From the IMG/VR virus record IMGVR_UViG_3300049811_000181, positions 1-23,081 of that record: a stretch of 23,081 bases of DNA. One strand, given 5' to 3'. Below are positions 1-8,337 of the stretch, piece after piece (position 1 is the stretch's first letter; every line of letters starts with the position of its first letter). Below the pieces are notes generated by a model. That model was not told the origin of the DNA, did not search any database, and worked only from the letters and a program-made list of their open reading frames with translations. This DNA comes from a virus. The translations under genes and the position numbers were made by a program.

Positions 1-227
1 TGCCTGACCACTGCCTCTGCAACCGCTTGCGGTGCGCCTGGCCTGAGTGCGAGGCGGCGGCCAGCTACACGGGCGCGGACCAGCCGCACGACGCGCCAAG
101 CCCGTGCGGGGATCTGGACTGCGCCGACAAGTGCGAGCGCATCCGGCTTAGCGGCGAAATGTGCCGCTCGGCTGCGCATGCGGCGCGGGCTGGTGATCAG
201 GACGCGATGGGGGATGAGGATGAGTAA
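1..227 (+). CDS. Small Cys-rich protein, start just outside window
   Basis: The reading frame is open from the first base and stops at TAA 225-227. The window begins with tgcctgac, so the initiator is almost certainly an ATG whose A lies one base before the window (Met-Pro-Asp-His). That gives about 75 residues with eight cysteines, at residues 5, 7, 12, 17, 36, 41, 45 and 55, in a CxC...C...C pattern, followed by an acidic tail. The spacing suggests metal binding, probably zinc, but I recognise no family. The next gene overlaps its stop (ATG at 220), so it is the first visible member of a plus-strand operon. The start junction has the same ATGCCTGA form as two later genes of this operon. Function unknown. 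Confidence 0.6.
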   Translation, partial: PDHCLCNRLRCAWPECEAAASYTGADQPHDAPSPCGDLDCADKCERIRLSGEMCRSAAHAARAGDQDAMGDEDE

Positions 228-552
228 CCCGCGCCGCAACCCCTCGCGCGACGCCTTGGGCTCCATGCGCGCCATGCCGGCCTCGGCGCGCGCCGCCCTG
301 CATCGCGGCTGGGTGGACGCGCAGAACAGCCCGTCGCGCTGGCCGCGGGCCTACGAGGCGATGCCGGAGCCCGATCAGATGCTCTACGAGTTCGGCCGCC
401 TCGCGGCCCTGAACGTCATCAAGGCCGGCCTGCCTGTCCCGATCTGGCGCGGCACACTGGACGACGCCGGCGGCTTCCACGAGGCCCACGCGCGGGCGGC
501 CGAGCTGATCGGCTCGCCGTGGCCGAGGCGGGAGGCCGCGCGCGATGCCTGA
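220..552 (+). CDS. Hypothetical protein, 110 aa
   Basis: I chose ATG 220 rather than the longer in-frame start at 178. It is preceded by a purine-rich GGGGGATGAGG Shine-Dalgarno stretch and overlaps the upstream stop (ATGAGTAA). The product is basic at the N-terminus, then carries a segment around residues 30-75 with alternating aromatic and charged residues (WPRAYEAMPEPDQMLYEFGR), which looks like a folded helical domain. No signal peptide, membrane segment or Cys cluster is visible. I do not recognise a family. The next gene starts 8 nt inside its 3' end (ATGCCTGA), so the two are translationally coupled. Probably an accessory or early phage protein. Confidence 0.6.
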   Translation: MSNPRRNPSRDALGSMRAMPASARAALHRGWVDAQNSPSRWPRAYEAMPEPDQMLYEFGRLAALNVIKAGLPVPIWRGTLDDAGGFHEAHARAAELIGSPWPRREAARDA

Positions 553-559
553 CGGCGCC
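545..559 (+). repeat. Gene-junction repeat ATGCCTGACGGCGCC, copy 1
   Basis: A 15-bp sequence that is at once the stop of one gene (TGA 550-552), the start of the next (ATG 545) and its first codons (Met-Pro-Asp-Gly-Ala). It recurs exactly at 1038-1052. The first eight bases are also implied at the left edge of the window. Confidence 0.8.
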
Positions 560-1045
560 TCGGCCTACTCCGTCACCCTCGCCGACGCGCAGGCCCTGGC
601 CGGCATCGTGGCCGTCCCGACCTCCGTCCGCGCCGATCTGCTGCGCGCCTACCGCGCCGCGCACGGCGAGGCCGCGCTGATCAACCTGTTCGCCCAGGCG
701 ATCGGCATGGCGAACAGCGTGGTCGAGAACAACCGCGAGGCGATCGAAATCCTGGGGATCTGCGACGGCACGCTGCATCCGCACAGCGCCCATCAGATCA
801 ACCTGCCGACCATGCTCGGCGCCTGCCAGGGCGCGCAGATCGCGCGGCACGCAAAGGGGATGTGCCACGGGTGCGCTTTCCGGCTCGGCAGCGTCGCGAA
901 CCAGAGCCCGTCCACGACGCTCGACGCGGGCGACTGCGTCAGCGCCGGCACACCCTTCCTGTGCCACGACGAGCCGGACGGAAAGCCTCGCCGCGCGTGC
1001 AGGGGCTTCGTGACCGCGAGGAGGAGGGCTGGCGCGCATGCCTGA
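545..1045 (+). CDS. Phage protein with C-terminal Cys/His cluster, 166 aa
   Basis: ATG 545 follows GGGAGG at a usable distance and overlaps the previous stop as ATGCCTGA. The N-terminal half is helical (residues about 10-75). The C-terminal half carries a motif block CHGCAFRLGS-ANQSP, then D-C, then FLCH and a final CRGF, with cysteines spaced like a metal or Fe-S site. From memory, the CxxCAFR-G-xANQSP...C...FxCH...C pattern recurs in hypothetical proteins of temperate and accessory phage operons in proteobacteria; I know of no assigned function. A role in DNA or protein binding is only a guess. It overlaps the following gene by 8 nt. Confidence 0.65.
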   Translation: MPDGASAYSVTLADAQALAGIVAVPTSVRADLLRAYRAAHGEAALINLFAQAIGMANSVVENNREAIEILGICDGTLHPHSAHQINLPTMLGACQGAQIARHAKGMCHGCAFRLGSVANQSPSTTLDAGDCVSAGTPFLCHDEPDGKPRRACRGFVTARRRAGAHA

Positions 1046-1280
1046 CGGCGCCGCCCGCCCCTGGCCGGCGCTGATGCGCGAGGACACCGCCGCCGCCTAC
1101 CTCGACGTGTCGGCCTCTTACTTCCGCGCGACCATCGCCCCCGAGGTGCCGCGCGTGATGCTCTCCGCCCGCGTCCTCGAAGGCCGCCGCATGTCCGGCC
1201 ACTTGCTGCTGCCACTCGTCGGGGCGAATGCTGGCGCTGGCGTCGAGCAGGAGGACGAGCGCGACCGCGCAGGCGATCAT
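939..1280 (-). pseudogene. VWA-domain (DUF1194-like) protein fragment, truncated by a junction
   Basis: The start ATG 1280-1278 overlaps the endolysin stop as ATGA, exactly as functional genes of this operon do. Residues 1-36 read as the first strand and helix of a von Willebrand A domain of the DUF1194 kind: a hydrophobic strand VALVLLLD, the MIDAS motif DASAS, then RPDEW-QQ-GHAAAFED, where the family usually has E-LQ-xGxAAAL-D. After residue 36 (about position 1173) the protein becomes Gly/Arg/His-rich shadow antisense to the plus-strand HTH gene, and family features vanish. The reading frame stays open to 939, so a short protein could be made, but a full VWA domain (about 200 residues) is absent. 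I regard it as a truncated gene that once extended the lysis operon. Confidence 0.45.
1038..1052 (+). repeat. Gene-junction repeat ATGCCTGACGGCGCC, copy 2
   Basis: Exact second copy of the 15-bp junction at 545-559, again with an 8-nt stop/start overlap (TGA 1043-1045, ATG 1038). Both copies are preceded by GCGC-rich sequence and a GGAGG-type site. Confidence 0.8.
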
Positions 1281-1310
1281 GGCTCCAGCCCCTCCATCGC
1301 CATCCCGTAG
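1038..1310 (+). CDS. Excisionase/HTH-like small protein, probably with a replaced C-terminus
   Basis: ATG 1038 is preceded by a strong GAGGAGGAGGG site and overlaps the upstream stop (ATGCCTGA). Residues 12-45 (LMREDTAAAYLDVSASYF, then EVPRVMLSARV) match the winged-helix start of excisionase/MerR-like phage DNA-binding proteins: an AAAYL-vs-SYF helix-turn-helix followed by a strand that normally leads into R-RWDRxxLDAWL. Here that ending is missing. From about residue 46 (position about 1173) the frame reads antisense to a VWA-like fragment and to the last codons of the endolysin. The N-terminal DNA-binding half therefore looks genuine, and the last half looks like read-through across a recombination joint. 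It could bind DNA as an Xis-like or regulatory protein if still functional. Confidence 0.5.
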   Translation: MPDGAARPWPALMREDTAAAYLDVSASYFRATIAPEVPRVMLSARVLEGRRMSGHLLLPLVGANAGAGVEQEDERDRAGDHGSSPSIAIP

Positions 1311-1996
1311 CGCGCGCGCCGGTCCTCGATACCGATCAGGCCGCCGTTCCAGATCCGCGTCACCGCCTCCACGTCGCCAAGGTCAGCAGCGCCCGCGATC
1401 TCGGGCCGGGAGCGCCAGAACCAAGCCGCCGAGCGCATGCCGGGCTCGGGCTCCACGATGCGGGCCACCAGCTCGTCCAGCGTCATGCCCAGCGCCGCGG
1501 CGCAGGCCTCATAGTTCGCGCGCCCCGTGAGCTGCGCCGGCCCACGCCCGCGGAACCGCCAGCCGTCGCCGGGCTGGGTGTTGCCCATGCGCCCGCCGTA
1601 GACGACCTGCGCGATGGCTTCCTGATCCGCCGCCCGCCCGGGCACGCGGCCGAGCTGCTGCGCCAGCGCGGGCGAGAACCGCCGCGGCCAGGTGCGGTGC
1701 AGCGCCTCGGGCGAGTAGTCCAGGCTCTCGACCATCCGCGCGAAGCTGCCGCTCTCGTGCCCCGTCATCGCCAGGAACATCGCCAGCCGCTTGCGCGGGC
1801 CGAGCTGCGCCCAAGGCACGACGGCGAGGATGGCGGGGCACCAGACCTGCGCGCGCTCGAGCGAGAGCAGCGGGACGGCGCGGGCGAGGCTCTCAGGCGT
1901 CAGCAGCGGCGGCGAGCGGGCGATCACCACCGCGGGCAGCGGCTCCGGCGCGCGCGGCGGCGCACCGCCCATCAGCCCGCGCAGCCACCCCATCAT
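1277..1996 (-). CDS. Endolysin, GH19 chitinase/lysozyme-like
   Basis: Cleaves the peptidoglycan glycan strand at lysis. With start ATG 1996 the product is 239 residues (ATG 1993 is equally possible and removes one Met). AGAGG lies 7 nt upstream of 1996, and both ATGs overlap the preceding stop. After a short Pro-rich N-terminus the GH19 fold is clear: catalytic Glu81 in MTGHESGSF, then ESLDYSPEAL, a WPRRF element, QVVYGGRMGN, and the hallmark DGWRFRGRGPAQLTGRANY. No signal peptide or SAR segment is visible, so export should depend on the holin encoded two genes upstream. The VWA fragment begins inside its stop codon. On the other strand the HTH-like ORF overlaps its last 34 bases. Confidence 0.9.
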   Translation of the reverse strand: MMGWLRGLMGGAPPRAPEPLPAVVIARSPPLLTPESLARAVPLLSLERAQVWCPAILAVVPWAQLGPRKRLAMFLAMTGHESGSFARMVESLDYSPEALHRTWPRRFSPALAQQLGRVPGRAADQEAIAQVVYGGRMGNTQPGDGWRFRGRGPAQLTGRANYEACAAALGMTLDELVARIVEPEPGMRSAAWFWRSRPEIAGAADLGDVEAVTRIWNGGLIGIEDRRARYGMAMEGLEP

Positions 1997-2313
1997 GGCC
2001 GCGCCTCTTTCCGCATGGCCCGCTGGATCAGCGTGAAAGCGTGCCGCAGCACCATGTGCGGCGTGGTGCGGCAGGCGCGCGCGATGGCTTCGGCCGGCTC
2101 GCCCATGCGCACCAGGTCCGCGAAGATCTCTTCCTGCTCCGGGGTCAGCGACGCCGGCTTCTGCCCGCGCCGGCGCAGCTCGCCCACCACGGGCGCGCGG
2201 TAGGCGGCATCCTGCCACCGGCCGCGCATCTTGGCGGCCTGCTGCTGCCGTCCCGGGTCGTTGCCCCTGGCCTTCTGCGCCGCGGAGATGCGGGCGCGGG
2301 TTTCGGGCTTCAT
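1993..2313 (-). CDS. Small HTH-like protein inside the lysis cassette, 106 aa
   Basis: ATG 2313 lies 7 nt after the holin stop; the longer upstream frame runs through the holin gene and is not credible as a start. The N-terminus (KPETRARISAAQKARGNDP) is basic and resembles the short NUMOD3-like DNA-binding motif ETRxxISxAQKxRG. The C-terminal half, residues about 60-100, has SLTPEQEEIFADLVRMGEP followed by AEAIARACRTTPHMVLRHA, a canonical helix-turn-helix. A DNA-binding protein between holin and endolysin is unusual. It may be a second small-terminase-like or regulatory protein, but I cannot assign it. Its stop overlaps the endolysin start. Confidence 0.65.
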   Translation of the reverse strand: MKPETRARISAAQKARGNDPGRQQQAAKMRGRWQDAAYRAPVVGELRRRGQKPASLTPEQEEIFADLVRMGEPAEAIARACRTTPHMVLRHAFTLIQRAMRKEARP

Positions 2314-2320
2314 GGCCGCG

Positions 2321-2626
2321 CTACTTCTGGCCGCCGTCCATGCGGTCCAGCACGCCGGCGAACTTCGCCCGGATAATCCGATGCGTTGCGTCAGACCCCA
2401 GCACGCCGAAGACCCACGCCGCGGCCATCGCACCCCAGCCGTCCAAGCCGCCCGCCTTGGCGAGAAGCCACCCGCCGGTGCACAGCCCGAGCCCACCGAG
2501 AAGCGTCCACAGCAGCCGCAGCGCACCCGCCGGGGGCGTGTGAGCCAGCCGCACCACAGTGGTCAAAACCGCGATTGCGATCAGGGCAAAGACTTCGCGC
2601 CACCCCTCGCCGCCTTCCGGGCTCAC
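2321..2626 (-). CDS. Holin, probably three transmembrane segments
   Basis: Starts with GTG 2626 overlapping the tail-fibre stop (GTGA). The 101-residue product has three hydrophobic stretches: residues about 12-27 (VFALIAIAVLTTVVRL), 33-56 (LRLLWTLLGGLGLCTGGWLL) and 65-77 (MAAAWVFGVLG). A basic, polar C-terminal tail ends GGQK. Size, topology and the position two genes upstream of a GH19 endolysin fit a phage holin that opens the inner membrane at the lysis time. Family assignment beyond this is not possible by eye. No i-spanin follows it, and no clear Rz/Rz1 pair is seen anywhere in the lysis block. Confidence 0.75.
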   Translation of the reverse strand: MSPEGGEGWREVFALIAIAVLTTVVRLAHTPPAGALRLLWTLLGGLGLCTGGWLLAKAGGLDGWGAMAAAWVFGVLGSDATHRIIRAKFAGVLDRMDGGQK

Positions 2627-3999
2627 AGCACCGGCTCCAGCGCGAAATCGCCGTCAGTAATGTTTCCTGAGCTGGCGAAAATTCGAATTGCGTTGACTGC
2701 GCCCGACGGCGCGACAGATGTTTGCGCCGCCAGTGGAGTCCATCCGAAAGTATCTCGAAAAAGCGAACTTTGCACGTTCGCGACGAAATCGCGGCCGCCT
2801 CCCCCAACATCAAATATCATCTGGCCTGTTACGCGCGTTCCTGAAAACGCCGTATCAATAGCGGGCGCCAGCACGCCGCTTGTGCTTGTCAGAACGCGCG
2901 AAACCTGCGCGCTTGGCGTTGCGTTCACCTGAAGCTCGGTTTGCGTGTAAGTTGCGCCAGAGATAAAGCTGCCGCCGCTGTCGGTAGAAACTCGAAACAG
3001 AAGAGACGCGGCATCTGTTGCAACTGCGACGCGGTTATAAGAAAGCCGGAACTGCGTTGGTCCCGCTGGAAACACGATGTCAACTTGCGCGGTGCTTGCC
3101 GTAATGACACGCCGGTCACGCAGGATGTAGGGCTGCACCAGCCGCCACACGCTGCCCACCCGCTGCACCTCCACCAGCATGCCGGGCAGCAGCTCGCCGC
3201 CCACCAGCGCAAAGCCGCGCGCGGTCTGCACGGCCGCGGCACCCAGCCCATTCGGGTTCAGCGTCACGGCCCCGGTGTTGGCGCTGGAGCCGGTCACGAA
3301 GCGCAGCCGCATGCCTTCCACCAGCGCCGGCAGCGCGGGCGTGAGCGCGATCGTGAGGGCGTTCGCGGTGCCCCCCGCGGTGCCGCCCCACCACACCGTG
3401 CCATCCTGTACTTGGCGGATGGACGGCGCCGAGAGAATGCCGCGGGCGGCGGTCGCATCGGCCGAGCCCACGAGGCTCTCGCCGAAGGTGGTGGCGATGG
3501 CCGGGCCGAGGGCCGCCACGACCGCGGCCGGCTCGCCCAGGCTGTTGAACCCAAGCACCCGGTTCGCGCGCGCGCTCGCGGAGGGCAGCGTCAGGTTCGC
3601 CGTGCTGTCCGTCTCAGCCACCCGGATCGTGCGCCCTTGGTCGCGCTCGATCTCCTGGGCAATGGCGGTGACGCGATCCAGCGCGCGCTCGTGCGTCTCG
3701 GCCGGGAACGGGTCGTTCGCCTGGTAGTCCACGAGCTGCGTGCGGGCGGTGGCGCGCAGGATGGACCACTGCACGGTGCTGGCCGGCGCGGTGACGGCGG
3801 AGACGGTGCCCGTGCTGCCGTTGCCCCCGGTGACGGTGTAGTGCGTCGTGAGGTTGCGCACCGTCTCGACGCCGGTGGCGATGACGCGCTCCACCACGCG
3901 CAGCTCGTCCGGGCCGAAAAAGGCGAAGGTGACGGGGAACTCCGTGGTGACGCCGTTCCCCACGTAGTCCACGCGCGCGATGGTGGTGCTGATCGTCAT
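2623..3999 (-). CDS. Tail fibre with T7 gp17-type N-terminus
   Basis: 458 residues; ATG 3999 is preceded by GAGGTGA. The N-terminus, residues about 5-125 (ARVDYVGNGVTTEFPVTFAF, ... HYTVTGGNGS, ... TQLVDYQANDPFPAETHE, ... ALDRVTAIAQEIERD), is the T7 fibre attachment domain that docks to the tail tube. A repetitive Ala/Thr/Ser-rich shaft follows, then from about residue 295 a C-terminal domain that should bind the receptor. That last part (positions about 2640-3115) is clearly lower in GC than the rest of the gene: 50% in 2641-2700 and 55% in 3001-3060, against 68% in 3241-3300 by hand count. Its codon use also differs, as expected for a horizontally exchanged receptor-binding module. Confidence 0.85.
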   Translation of the reverse strand: MTISTTIARVDYVGNGVTTEFPVTFAFFGPDELRVVERVIATGVETVRNLTTHYTVTGGNGSTGTVSAVTAPASTVQWSILRATARTQLVDYQANDPFPAETHERALDRVTAIAQEIERDQGRTIRVAETDSTANLTLPSASARANRVLGFNSLGEPAAVVAALGPAIATTFGESLVGSADATAARGILSAPSIRQVQDGTVWWGGTAGGTANALTIALTPALPALVEGMRLRFVTGSSANTGAVTLNPNGLGAAAVQTARGFALVGGELLPGMLVEVQRVGSVWRLVQPYILRDRRVITASTAQVDIVFPAGPTQFRLSYNRVAVATDAASLLFRVSTDSGGSFISGATYTQTELQVNATPSAQVSRVLTSTSGVLAPAIDTAFSGTRVTGQMIFDVGGGGRDFVANVQSSLFRDTFGWTPLAAQTSVAPSGAVNAIRIFASSGNITDGDFALEPVL

Positions 4000-4003
4000 G
4001 GGA

Positions 4004-6508
4004 TCACCTCAGCTCGATTGCCATACGGTCGGAGGGCGCCATCAGCGGGTCTTGCCCGAACTGCTCGCGGCGGCGCTGATCCTGGCGCGCCAGGTAGCCG
4101 GGCGAGAGCGCTTCGCGCATGGCGTTGATGATCAGATAGTCGAGCGCCGGGCGCGCGAACCACACGTTCGCGAAGGGCGTGGAGCCCAGCGCAGCGCTCA
4201 GCGCGTCGGCGGCTTTCCCGTCGCCGTCTCGCGCGCGGGCGAGAAGGTTGACCCATCGCGCGGCGTCGGAGGCGGCAGGGCCGGCAAGGTTTTCCAGAGC
4301 AGAATTGCCAGAGCGAGAAGCTTCGCCGAAGAGAAAATCGCCATAGATGCCAGCACCGCCGCCCTGGACCAGCGCGGCCAGTATCGTCTCCAGGCGGGGG
4401 TTGCCGTCCTCGTCGGTGAGTTCCTTCGGCTCATACCCTCGGATCGCATCCTTCGCGGTCATCGCAGCATAGCCCAGGATCGTCATGCCCGCGATCAGCG
4501 TGCCAATGTGCGCGGCACCGGCGCTGCTGCCCTCCGCGCCGCCCTGAATGGCGCGCCCGAGCGTGCGCGACGTGAAGGCCAGCGGGAACGCCTTGAACTG
4601 CATGATGAAGCGGATGGCCTCGCCCCAAGCCGTGCCGCGCTGCGTCCCACCCGTGGTGTAGCGCGTCGTGGCCGCGTCAGCTTCCAGCACCGAGGATTGC
4701 GCTTCGTCCGCGTAGTACCGGCGCAGGGCCAGGTCCGCCTCGCGATCCTTGGCCGCGAAGCCGGGCACGATGTAGGGCCGCCCGTCGATGGTCCGCAGCC
4801 CCTCCGCGCGGATCACGTCCCACGCGCTCGCCTCGATGCCGTGCTGGCCCAACACCGCGCGCAGCCGCGGGTCCAGCTGCTCGAATGCTCGCGTCGCGTT
4901 CCGCCCCAGATGCGCCGACAGCACCCGAGCCGCCGCCGCGCGGTTCGCATCGGTCCACAGCGTGAGCCCGGTCCAGCGGAAGAAGGTGGACAGCATGGAC
5001 TGCATGGCACCGGGCGCGCCATCGTTCGCCACGTAGGGCGACGTGAGGTGCCCGATTACCCCGTCGAAGCCCTCGCCCAGCAGGTACGCCAGCTCGCGCT
5101 GCTCGCCCCGCCCGCGGCCTTGCAGGAACTCCCGCACCTGCCCGCCCACCGCCTCGCCGAAGCCCATGCCGTTGAAACGCAGGTTGGTGATGGCGATCGG
5201 CAGATCCGTGATCGATGAGATCACCGCGCCGCCCAGCTTCGCCAGCGACTGCACCGCGCGAATGGTGCCGCCGATGTCCGCCATGGTCTGGGATGCAGGG
5301 ATCATGGTCTGCCCGCTCGCGACGCGGAACGCTGCGCCGATGGCGTTGCCCTCGCCGACCCGCAGGCTTTCCTTCACCGCCGCCTTCTGGTCCGGCGGCA
5401 CGCCGTCGTCAGTGTCCACGCGCCGGCGCAGGTTTTCCAGCACCGCATCCAGCGTGGCGCCCGGGTTCGGCCCGAGGATCTCCATCTGCGCGGCGTTCAG
5501 CGCCGCGCGGGATTGGTGCGCCACCATGCCGTCGAAGATGTGCCCCTGCCCGAAGTCGCGGCTGTAGGCGAGCCAGTCATCGGCGGCACGGAAGTGCAGC
5601 ACGCGGTGACGTTCCAGCGCGCGCGCGACGTTCAGCGGCCCCTTGAAGCCGGAGCCGGTGGCGTCCGCCACCGCCGGCCCGCGCTCCGGTGAAAAGACGA
5701 TGTTTTCCCAGACGTTGCCCAGAATGGCCCGCACCTGCGCCGGGCTCTCTACGTCGGGAAAGGTGCGCGCCAAGTCGAGCCGCGGGAGCACCGCCTCGAT
5801 CCACGCATCCTTGCCGGCGGCGGCGATCCGGTCCGCATCGTGGATCTGCGCGCCCGCCCATCCGTCGAGCTTGCCGATGTTCGCGCCCAACCGGTTCAGC
5901 TCAAGCCGCGATGCCTCGGCCGCGTCCGCGAAGATGCGCGCCACCACCTGCGCGTCCCGGTTCCGCGACATGCCGGGCGAGCCGCCGTCGCGCAGCTCCA
6001 CCATCTCGCGCACCACGTCATCGAGGAAAGCGCGATCCCGAAGCATCCGCTCCGCGTGCGGCACCTCGCGCACGATGCGGGCCAGCATCTCCGAGCCCAC
6101 GAAGCGCGCCTCATAGGCCAGCTTGGTCGCCGCGATGGAGTTCCGCGCGCCCTCGACCCCGCGCGTCGTGCCCTCGAACAGCGCGAGCACCGCGTTCCGG
6201 TACGAGTTGCCCACCAGCCGCGGCGTCATGCCCTGTTCCAGCAGCCGCTCGACGTGCGCCGTGGCGCGATCGCGCGCGATGATGGACAGCGCCGCGTGCT
6301 TCCGGGCGAGCGCCGCCTGGATCGCCAGCTCGTCCGCGTCCGCCTTCACCGCCTCGCGCAGCCGCACGTCCAGCGCGTCGATCTGCCCGGCCGCCTGTAG
6401 GGCACGCTGCCGCAGCGCCGCGCGCTCGAAGATCGTCTCGACTTGCTCATCCGTGAGCGGCCGGCCGGCGGCTTCGCGGACGGCGGCGGCGCAGTTCTTC
6501 CAGCTCAT
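4004..6508 (-). CDS. Large internal virion protein, gp16-like (DNA ejection), 834 aa
   Basis: I chose ATG 6508 because it overlaps the upstream stop (ATGA); the frame also has an ATG at 6529. The protein is mostly helical. Near residue 620 it has the stretch ATTRYTTGGTQRGTAWGEAI followed by IRFIMQFKAFPLAF, a pattern found in the C-terminal part of T7-type internal core proteins. After that come hydrophobic helices (IGTLIAGMTILGYAAM and later ILAALVQGGGAGIYGDFLF) that could insert in the host membrane. No lytic transglycosylase domain is visible. In podoviruses such proteins leave the capsid with the DNA and build the channel across the envelope. Its place between the other core proteins and the fibre supports this. 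Confidence 0.75.
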   Translation of the reverse strand: MSWKNCAAAVREAAGRPLTDEQVETIFERAALRQRALQAAGQIDALDVRLREAVKADADELAIQAALARKHAALSIIARDRATAHVERLLEQGMTPRLVGNSYRNAVLALFEGTTRGVEGARNSIAATKLAYEARFVGSEMLARIVREVPHAERMLRDRAFLDDVVREMVELRDGGSPGMSRNRDAQVVARIFADAAEASRLELNRLGANIGKLDGWAGAQIHDADRIAAAGKDAWIEAVLPRLDLARTFPDVESPAQVRAILGNVWENIVFSPERGPAVADATGSGFKGPLNVARALERHRVLHFRAADDWLAYSRDFGQGHIFDGMVAHQSRAALNAAQMEILGPNPGATLDAVLENLRRRVDTDDGVPPDQKAAVKESLRVGEGNAIGAAFRVASGQTMIPASQTMADIGGTIRAVQSLAKLGGAVISSITDLPIAITNLRFNGMGFGEAVGGQVREFLQGRGRGEQRELAYLLGEGFDGVIGHLTSPYVANDGAPGAMQSMLSTFFRWTGLTLWTDANRAAAARVLSAHLGRNATRAFEQLDPRLRAVLGQHGIEASAWDVIRAEGLRTIDGRPYIVPGFAAKDREADLALRRYYADEAQSSVLEADAATTRYTTGGTQRGTAWGEAIRFIMQFKAFPLAFTSRTLGRAIQGGAEGSSAGAAHIGTLIAGMTILGYAAMTAKDAIRGYEPKELTDEDGNPRLETILAALVQGGGAGIYGDFLFGEASRSGNSALENLAGPAASDAARWVNLLARARDGDGKAADALSAALGSTPFANVWFARPALDYLIINAMREALSPGYLARQDQRRREQFGQDPLMAPSDRMAIELR

Positions 6509-8337
6509 GCGAGGTTCCTCAGCAGGCACTCGCCCGCTTCCGTCAGGCCGCGCGCCGCGGCTTCCAGCTCGGCCGCCGCCTCATCGCCGGCCCGGAGGAT
6601 GGCTTCGTCCGCCTCCGTGAGCCGGCCTTCCGCGCGCATCGCTTCCACCGCGGCCATGGCCGGGTCCGCCTCGGCCGTCGCGCGGGGCTCGGCCGTCGCC
6701 GCAATGCGGGCCGGTTGCTGCGGCCGCGGCGGGGGCGCGGGCTCCGCCGGCGGGGCGCTGCTAAGGCGCTGGAGCTGCTGGCGCGCGTCGAGGGCCTCGC
6801 GATACCAGGCGAAGGCTTCCTCCTCCGCCACCAGGTCTTCGAGCGTGCGGCCGGGGGCGGTTTCGTCCTGATCGCGCAGCGCGCGGAGCACGTCGTCCAC
6901 CGGTGCCGTGATGTCGAGACCGCGGCTGCGCAGCACTTCGTCCAGCTCCGCCAGCGCGTCCTGCCTCGCGCGCGCCTCCGCGTCCTCGGTGCGGCCCAGC
7001 CGGACCCGCGTCTTGTTCACGTCCTCATTCAGCGCATCGAGGAACGCCACCACGCCGAACCCGTCCGCCCCCGTCTCGCCGGTCGGACGCCCGAGCGCGT
7101 CGAAGTCCTGCCCGAACTCATCGAAGTAGCCCGCCGCCCGCGCGCGCTCGGCCATCAGGTCCGGCGTGAGCCCGTTGCGGTTCACCAGCCCGGGCCGCGA
7201 CGCGCCGCCCAGCATGTTCCGCACGTCGCCGCCGTCGTCCTTGATGCCCCCTTGCTCCACCACGAACTGCGTGAGCGTCTTCTCGCCGCGCGCACGCGCC
7301 GCGCCGCGGTTCCGCAGCAGGTCTTCGACAGAACGCCCGGCCTCGGTCCCGCGCGCCTCCATCGCATCCCGCGCGTCCAGATCCTCCATCGTGACCGGCC
7401 GCGTGCGCCGCTCGCGCTCCCGCCACGCTGCGAATTCCGCCCGCGTGACCGGCAGCCCATCCGGCCCCACCGGCAGCGCGCGGATCTCCATCCCGCGCAG
7501 CTCGGCCGGCGCAGAGCGCATCAGCGCGTCTTCCACCGCCTGGACCGCAAGCGGGCTGGGCACGTCCACCGGCCGCCCGGCCGCAATGTCCCGCGCCGCC
7601 GCGTCCACCGTCCGCACCGCGGCCATGGTGTCCGGCACCACCCGCGCCGCCGCGCCCCGGTCCAGCAGCCCCCCGACTGCCCCGAACCCGGTGCCCACCA
7701 GCGCGCCGATCGCCAGCTCGCCCAGCACCCGCCCGAACGTCACCTCATCGCCGTACCGCTCCGCCACGCCGAGCGTGATGGGCATCACCGCGGCATTGCC
7801 CAGCGTGCCGTCCACGGCCCCGCGCAGCGCCCCAGCGGCCACCCCAGGCGCCGCCAGCGTGTCCGCGGCGCGCACCGCCCCCAGGCTCCGCAGCCCGCGC
7901 GCCACCGGCCCCGCGAACGGCACGAAGTTGGCCGGATCCGGGATGGACCCCAGCATCTGCGCGCCGAAGCCCAGCGCCGTGTCGAGCACGCCCGCATCCC
8001 GTCGCGCGATCAGCCCTTCGCGATACCGGCGCTCGTCCCACTCCGCCGCCATGGCAGCAGCCCGGCCGCGCGTCATGCGCTCGTCCCACTCCAGCCGCGG
8101 GCGGGCAAAGCCCGACGCCTGCCACTCCTCGCGCGTCAGGGGGCGCGGGTCCGCCTCCGCCGCCACTTCCTCGCGCCCACGGATGCCGAGCGCTTGCGGG
8201 GTGGTGTTGGTGAACCCCTCGCGCACGTTCGCGCCCAGGAACTCGCCCAGCCCGGGCCGGCGCGTGGCAAGGAACGCCTCGCCCACGCCTTCCGGCACGT
8301 CCGGGATGGCTGGCAGGCCGAGGGCGCCGAGGTCCAT
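6505..8337 (-). CDS. Internal virion/DNA-transfer protein, 610 aa
   Basis: ATG 8337 overlaps the upstream stop (TGATG). The first 120 residues are polar, then a block around 115-215 has amphipathic and glycine-rich hydrophobic segments (LDTALGFGAQMLGSIPDPANFVPF, given here in part, and LAIGALVGTGFGAVGGLL) typical of phage DNA-ejection proteins that form a membrane channel. The C-terminal third is charged and probably coiled-coil, ending in a Pro/Ala linker (PPAEPAPPPRPQQPA) and a helical acidic tail. I see no catalytic motif. It lies between the gp15-like and gp16-like genes, so it is best read as part of the internal core. It may be the N-terminal half of a gp16-type protein that is split in this phage. 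Confidence 0.65.
   Translation of the reverse strand: MDLGALGLPAIPDVPEGVGEAFLATRRPGLGEFLGANVREGFTNTTPQALGIRGREEVAAEADPRPLTREEWQASGFARPRLEWDERMTRGRAAAMAAEWDERRYREGLIARRDAGVLDTALGFGAQMLGSIPDPANFVPFAGPVARGLRSLGAVRAADTLAAPGVAAGALRGAVDGTLGNAAVMPITLGVAERYGDEVTFGRVLGELAIGALVGTGFGAVGGLLDRGAAARVVPDTMAAVRTVDAAARDIAAGRPVDVPSPLAVQAVEDALMRSAPAELRGMEIRALPVGPDGLPVTRAEFAAWRERERRTRPVTMEDLDARDAMEARGTEAGRSVEDLLRNRGAARARGEKTLTQFVVEQGGIKDDGGDVRNMLGGASRPGLVNRNGLTPDLMAERARAAGYFDEFGQDFDALGRPTGETGADGFGVVAFLDALNEDVNKTRVRLGRTEDAEARARQDALAELDEVLRSRGLDITAPVDDVLRALRDQDETAPGRTLEDLVAEEEAFAWYREALDARQQLQRLSSAPPAEPAPPPRPQQPARIAATAEPRATAEADPAMAAVEAMRAEGRLTEADEAILRAGDEAAAELEAAARGLTEAGECLLRNLA

Follow-up and report, generated by a model that had tools for sequence, protein, structure and literature searches.

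Integration-deficient deletion derivatives of temperate phages form a known general class, and the locus described here may resemble its members in having lost the integrase gene and attP by deletion. It lies in a virus record of 23,081 bases, the whole of which was used as the window. Two genes meet at this locus: one of the HTH (excisionase/AlpA) type, and one of the VWA-like family DUF1194. In parts of one source, a DxSxS motif is described for DUF1194, and secretion-system neighbours of the family are treated, its function being called unknown (PMC12282271).

Among the relatives of the window, G005 (IMGVR_UViG_3300002461_001196; L053 and L113) is an integrated prophage with the same structural-gene order. 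Its IVP1 is 75% identical to that of the window (positions 4004-6529; the names IVP1 to IVP3, terminase, and capsid are assumed labels). The integrase gene of G005 (L113:266-1330, minus strand) follows a gene with a weak HTH_17 match (18.8 bits against a cut-off of 27; E = 4.9e-5 with our own profile) and points with its 3' end towards the att end, while a GH108 lysozyme gene (L053:14705-15373) is found at the opposite end. A perfect 22-bp repeat is present at L113:225-246 and L053:15548-15569, 19 nt beyond the stop of the integrase gene and 174 nt beyond that of the lysozyme gene, respectively. Such a repeat is expected by chance about 2e-6 times, and it occurred only at these two places among the loci compared. 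The left copy forms the 5' end of an Lrp/AsnC-domain gene, start codon included, and the right copy is followed by an oligopeptide ABC transporter gene. We read this repeat as the att core, and the predicted order of circular G005 is HTH gene, integrase gene, and attP, met head-on by the lysis gene, the two stops lying 215 nt apart. G005 differs from the window in having an integrase and an att core, and in carrying the GH108 lysozyme in place of a GH19 endolysin plus a VWA gene; no DUF1194 gene was found in it. The att core of G005 had no match in the window at up to 3 mismatches (best, 15 of 22 positions), which says little because the att site of the window phage may be a different one.

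The pairing of HTH and integrase genes was also found in bacteria. Our HTH profile gave 50 matches in 40 of the 299 host-family genomes (E ≤ 0.001), and 30 were taken as loci. At 23 of these 30 loci, a tyrosine integrase gene lay directly downstream of the HTH gene and on the same strand (20 out of 27 as an independent count, three of the 23 integrases having helped to build the integrase model); the remaining seven had no integrase of that type downstream. The viral contig L115 repeated the HTH-integrase arrangement of genome G231. Integrases of G231, G078, G208, and G005 all matched Phage_integrase in Pfam. The HTH proteins of G231, G078, and G208 (L108, L109, and L110) resembled the N-terminal part of the window protein, but were complete and directly followed by the integrase gene. 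In the 23-kb window, no integrase was detected at E ≤ 0.5.

The minus strand of the window carries a podovirus-like virion module, with a portal gene (Head-tail_con in Pfam, E = 1e-116), virion protein genes, a tail-fibre ORF, and an endolysin gene. At the left end, a plus-strand operon (178-552, 545-1045, and a gene starting at 1038) meets this module head-on. The features around the meeting point are as follows:

178-552, plus strand: ORF of unknown function in the operon whose last member is the HTH gene (from the ORF list; gene-like, with GC of 0.69/0.60/0.94 at the three codon positions).
545-1045, plus strand: phrog_14805 gene without an assigned function, placed ahead of the HTH gene, whose start it overlaps (phrog_14805, E = 2.5e-43).
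939-1172, minus strand: spurious tail of the minus-strand ORF, running antisense to the HTH gene and to the last part of the phrog_14805 gene (profile score at the shuffled level).
1038-1175, plus strand: N-terminal 46 residues of an HTH protein of the excisionase/AlpA type (homologue alignments; profile score peak at residue 46).
1173-1175: joint, the last triplet explained by both families (GTC; V46 of the HTH protein and D36 of the VWA protein; change-point score and codon comparison).
1173-1280, minus strand: N-terminal 36 residues of a VWA-like DUF1194 protein (DUF1194, 25.9 bits; homology to G181).
1176-1310, plus strand: spurious tail of the plus-strand ORF, running antisense to the VWA gene and to the last part of the endolysin gene (profile score at the shuffled level; antisense match in G181).
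1277-1997, minus strand: GH19-like endolysin gene, immediately upstream of the VWA gene (phrog_181 endolysin, E = 2e-61).

The first of these ORFs had no Pfam match at E ≤ 1. For the endolysin, Glyco_hydro_19 scored 22.9 bits, below its cut-off of 25.5, and its start is placed near 1994-1997 because it would there overlap the preceding stop (sequence at 1985-2005). No terminator- or promoter-like site was found in 900-1500, and no tRNA in the 23-kb window.

Both genes at the joint had credible starts and family-like N-terminal parts. On the plus strand, the ATG at 1038 overlaps the stop of ORF 545-1045; the ORF (1038-1310) encodes 90 aa, whereas complete HTH homologues are 74-79 aa long. Its three best homologues in tblastn aligned with residues 1-51, 2-47, and 1-47 at 55-59% identity (57% over residues 1-51 for G231, whose own protein scored a weak 18 bits with HTH_17 against a cut-off of 27). 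Past residue 46, the conserved DLD and W positions were replaced, and the complete C-terminal segment was absent. On the minus strand, the ATG at 1280 shares bases with the stop that ends the endolysin ORF at 1277; the ORF (939-1280) encodes 113 aa, and complete VWA homologues have 195-199. Residues 3-37 matched profile positions 1-35 of the 206 of PF06707 (DUF1194; E = 7e-6; 25.9 bits against a curated cut-off of 27), and in our own profile only positions 3-39 of 198 were matched, the complete domain of about 195 residues being absent. The metal-site motif DxSxS was present as DASAS (residues 13-17). Against four full-length loci, tblastn likeness stopped at residues 36, 36, 36, and 34; the best match covered residues 1-43 in the genome search versus 1-36 in tblastn, and codon by codon the likeness dropped past codon 36. 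The closest VWA proteins compared, those of G181 (L107; 80.6% identity over residues 1-36) and L051 (54% over residues 2-36), are likewise encoded near cell-wall hydrolase genes, but are complete (about 195-200 aa); the full-length G181 protein scored 136 bits with DUF1194 and 46 bits with VWA.

The position of the break was determined with a change-point test, in which per-residue log-odds were summed along each ORF of the window, using profiles built without the window (29 HTH rows and 33 VWA rows). The cumulative score peaked at residue 46 of the HTH protein and at residue 36 of the VWA protein, which are the same triplet, 1173-1175. With the same profiles, hmmsearch limited the matches to residues 1-48 (HTH; E = 3.4e-23) and 1-37 (VWA). 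The original prediction had placed the truncation of the HTH gene at about residue 45 and the loss of VWA features at about residue 36, both near position 1173; it was thus correct to within one codon. Its view that a joint cuts two convergent genes is supported as well, in that the likeness to both families ends on one triplet.

Beyond the peaks, the scores summed to -150 for the VWA protein (shuffled mean, -157) and -50 for the HTH protein (shuffled mean, -55), ranking 0.63 and 0.66, respectively, among 2000 shuffles. Because these sums are at the shuffled level, the two tails carry no family signal. Residues 44-85 of the plus-strand ORF matched the antisense of the VWA gene in G181, and residues 44-109, 33-111, and 37-95 of the minus-strand ORF matched the antisense of the HTH genes in G231, G078, and G208, respectively, as anticipated by the earlier reading that each frame runs into the antisense of the other. 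Moreover, third-position GC dropped across the joint in both frames (HTH, 0.96 to 0.82; VWA, 0.89 to 0.71), and overall GC was equal on either side (0.731 and 0.738). Significant homologues of neither protein extended beyond the joint, and no relative was found with the same antisense overlap and both ORFs intact. If the joint is real, neither ORF should be annotated as a protein over its full length.

Weak matches of the whole chimeric ORFs (E above 1e-4) ran past the joint, for example in L062 and L063 (residues 5-72, 34% identity, one internal stop); the latter were taken as chance, because neither genome belongs to the 40 that the HTH profile picked out. A perfect 10-nt inverted repeat (923-932 and 1166-1175) touches the joint. 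A fold-back at this repeat was considered and rejected: the number of inverted 10-mers, 7 against a mean of 4.7, was reached in 90 of 300 shuffles and is at the level of chance. An inversion that broke both genes was also rejected, as it would set the other half of the VWA gene beside the HTH gene, and that half is not seen there.

IVP1 had relatives in two viral records (77% and 75% identity), in a Rubritepida MAG (74%), and in a Roseomonas acroporae genome (66%). Rubritepida and Roseomonas are both Roseomonadaceae (Acetobacterales) and, since the bacterial relatives that bear IVP1 both belong there, the host is probably a Roseomonas-like bacterium of the Roseomonadaceae group.

Overall, with moderate confidence, we regard the joint as the scar of an illegitimate deletion that removed the integration module from a temperate phage of Roseomonas-like bacteria. 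The prediction had left a mosaic edge, a deletion, and an assembly error side by side; these three are not fully separable, but the deletion is now favoured, since an integrase usually follows the HTH gene and the integrase and att core occupy the same place in G005. In the parent, an early operon of HTH gene, tyrosine integrase gene, and attP would have faced the lysis genes, endolysin followed by VWA. A deletion in circular or concatemeric temperate-phage DNA, with little or no homology, would then have removed 28-33 codons from the end of the HTH gene, the whole integrase gene, attP, and 159-163 codons from the end of the VWA gene, and the two gene stumps would have been joined at 1173-1175. 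With a parent arranged like G005, the deletion would measure roughly 1.85-1.9 kb. The parental layout, the single deletion, and the loss of the ability to integrate are what we infer from these comparisons. As no intact version of the window phage was found among the viral contigs, phage records, and genomes searched, the layout was drawn from relatives whose genes are 57-81% identical, which is a point against the deletion. Further points against it are the early genes left of the joint, for which the examined sequence of the relatives has no counterpart, the absence of the phrog_14805 gene from the host-family genomes and of an annotated integrase near it in F116-like phages, and the seven HTH loci that lack an integrase of this type. 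The truncated proteins are probably non-functional: the HTH protein is without the conserved C-terminal DLDxWLD region, and the VWA protein retains only the first strand with the DxSxS motif. If the joint is real, the window would be a snapshot of a temperate lineage losing integration by a single small deletion at the phage's natural att end, with the two flanking genes cut and the virion module untouched. Such a deletion is ordinary phage biology; the scar is unusually well placed.

Tentatively, and with less confidence than in the deletion as such, the window may represent a naturally circulating virulent derivative of such a temperate phage, in which one deletion erased the integrase gene and attP and cut the excisionase-like and VWA genes short, leaving the early operon to run head-on into the lysis operon. 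A contig that crosses from the one operon into the other would correspond to circular, concatemeric, or packaged DNA, or be chimeric, rather than an integrated prophage. In the relative G004 (L052:14800-16055 with L114:1-4500), minus-strand ORFs face the lysis end, and no recognisable integrase was found in its whole 32,538-base record. G004 hints at integrase-free members, a hint only because its record may be incomplete; it would be the second such member if the virulent-derivative reading is true.

It is rather unlikely that the joint is an artefact of assembly or library preparation, that is, a chimeric contig in which the end of one phage's early operon was fused at 1173 to lysis genes from elsewhere, both genes being intact in nature. 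The joint is known from a single contig, the exact 29-mer spanning it occurred in none of the viral contigs (the window's own record possibly lay outside the scan), and neither an intact nor an identically cut relative was found; these points fit a chimera. However, mismatched conserved positions lie within three codons on both sides of D36/V46, which would leave at most about 12 shared bases, and the k-mers of most assemblers are longer than that. This short shared stretch fits illegitimate recombination better than a k-mer jump by an assembler, which is not proof. Moreover, the joint sits exactly where integrase and attP are expected, as a random chimera need not, and GC is the same on both sides. 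Even as an assembly error, it would be a useful example of a chimera, placed on one triplet by two independent protein families.

A mosaic joint, in which non-homologous recombination brought the early module of one phage to the lysis module of another and cut both genes, with no simple deletion within one ancestor, appears improbable. Counterparts of the early genes left of the joint were absent from the examined sequence of two relatives that share the structural genes, and lysis genes vary among relatives, with GH19 plus VWA in the window and GH108 in G005; as both sets of genes differ, module exchange does occur near the joint. Against this explanation, GC is equal on the two sides, the joint coincides with the natural att end on the G005 map, and a single deletion takes fewer steps. 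Finally, an ordinary antisense overlap of two intact, divergent proteins with natural ends is very unlikely: both frames do stay open past the joint, as antisense frames often do in GC-rich DNA, but the residues there score as shuffled sequence against both families, match the antisense strands of the other gene's homologues, and follow a shift in codon-position GC.

Outside the window, DUF1194 occurred widely in the host family, with matches at E ≤ 1e-10 in 177 of 299 genomes and often in a longer frame, and was rare in viral contigs (three among the contigs reached by pattern scans). With our own profile, no DUF1194 gene was detected in the examined flanks of 47 viral loci with endolysin relatives, so the endolysin-VWA pairing is not general. 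The gene recurs close to genes for cell-wall hydrolases or small membrane proteins. A GH19-like gene adjoins the copy in L051 (4761-5363) within 1 kb, a short hydrophobic ORF comes next in L150 (4815-5624), and in G181 (L107:7862-8449) the start is overlapped by an SLT/PG-binding ORF. In G231 and G263 (L112:692-1231 and L111:9354-9953), the gene comes after phage-tail-like ORFs; the G231 copy contains an internal stop.

Positions 1-4000 of the window gave only short blastn matches to phage records, in endolysin and phrog_14805-type genes, and the two chimeric ORFs had no tblastn match in the phage collection at E ≤ 1. Among viral contigs, no relative was found for the first 48 HTH residues or for the phrog_14805 protein, and the phrog_14805 gene was present in none of the 299 host-family genomes. 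No integrase was annotated within 4 kb of the phrog_14805 gene in two F116-like annotated phages, and the order phrog_14805, HTH, and integrase was not confirmed in these two phages or in the 299 genomes. The phrog_14805 protein shared 43-45% identity with genes in 11 records of Pseudomonas phages, among them several F116-like ones; in F116 itself, the match fell mostly outside annotated genes. Within the virion module, the 3' part of the tail-fibre ORF (2623-3999) had a GC of only 0.567 at window positions 2641-3100, versus 0.73-0.74 in the adjoining blocks, which likely marks an exchanged receptor-binding end.
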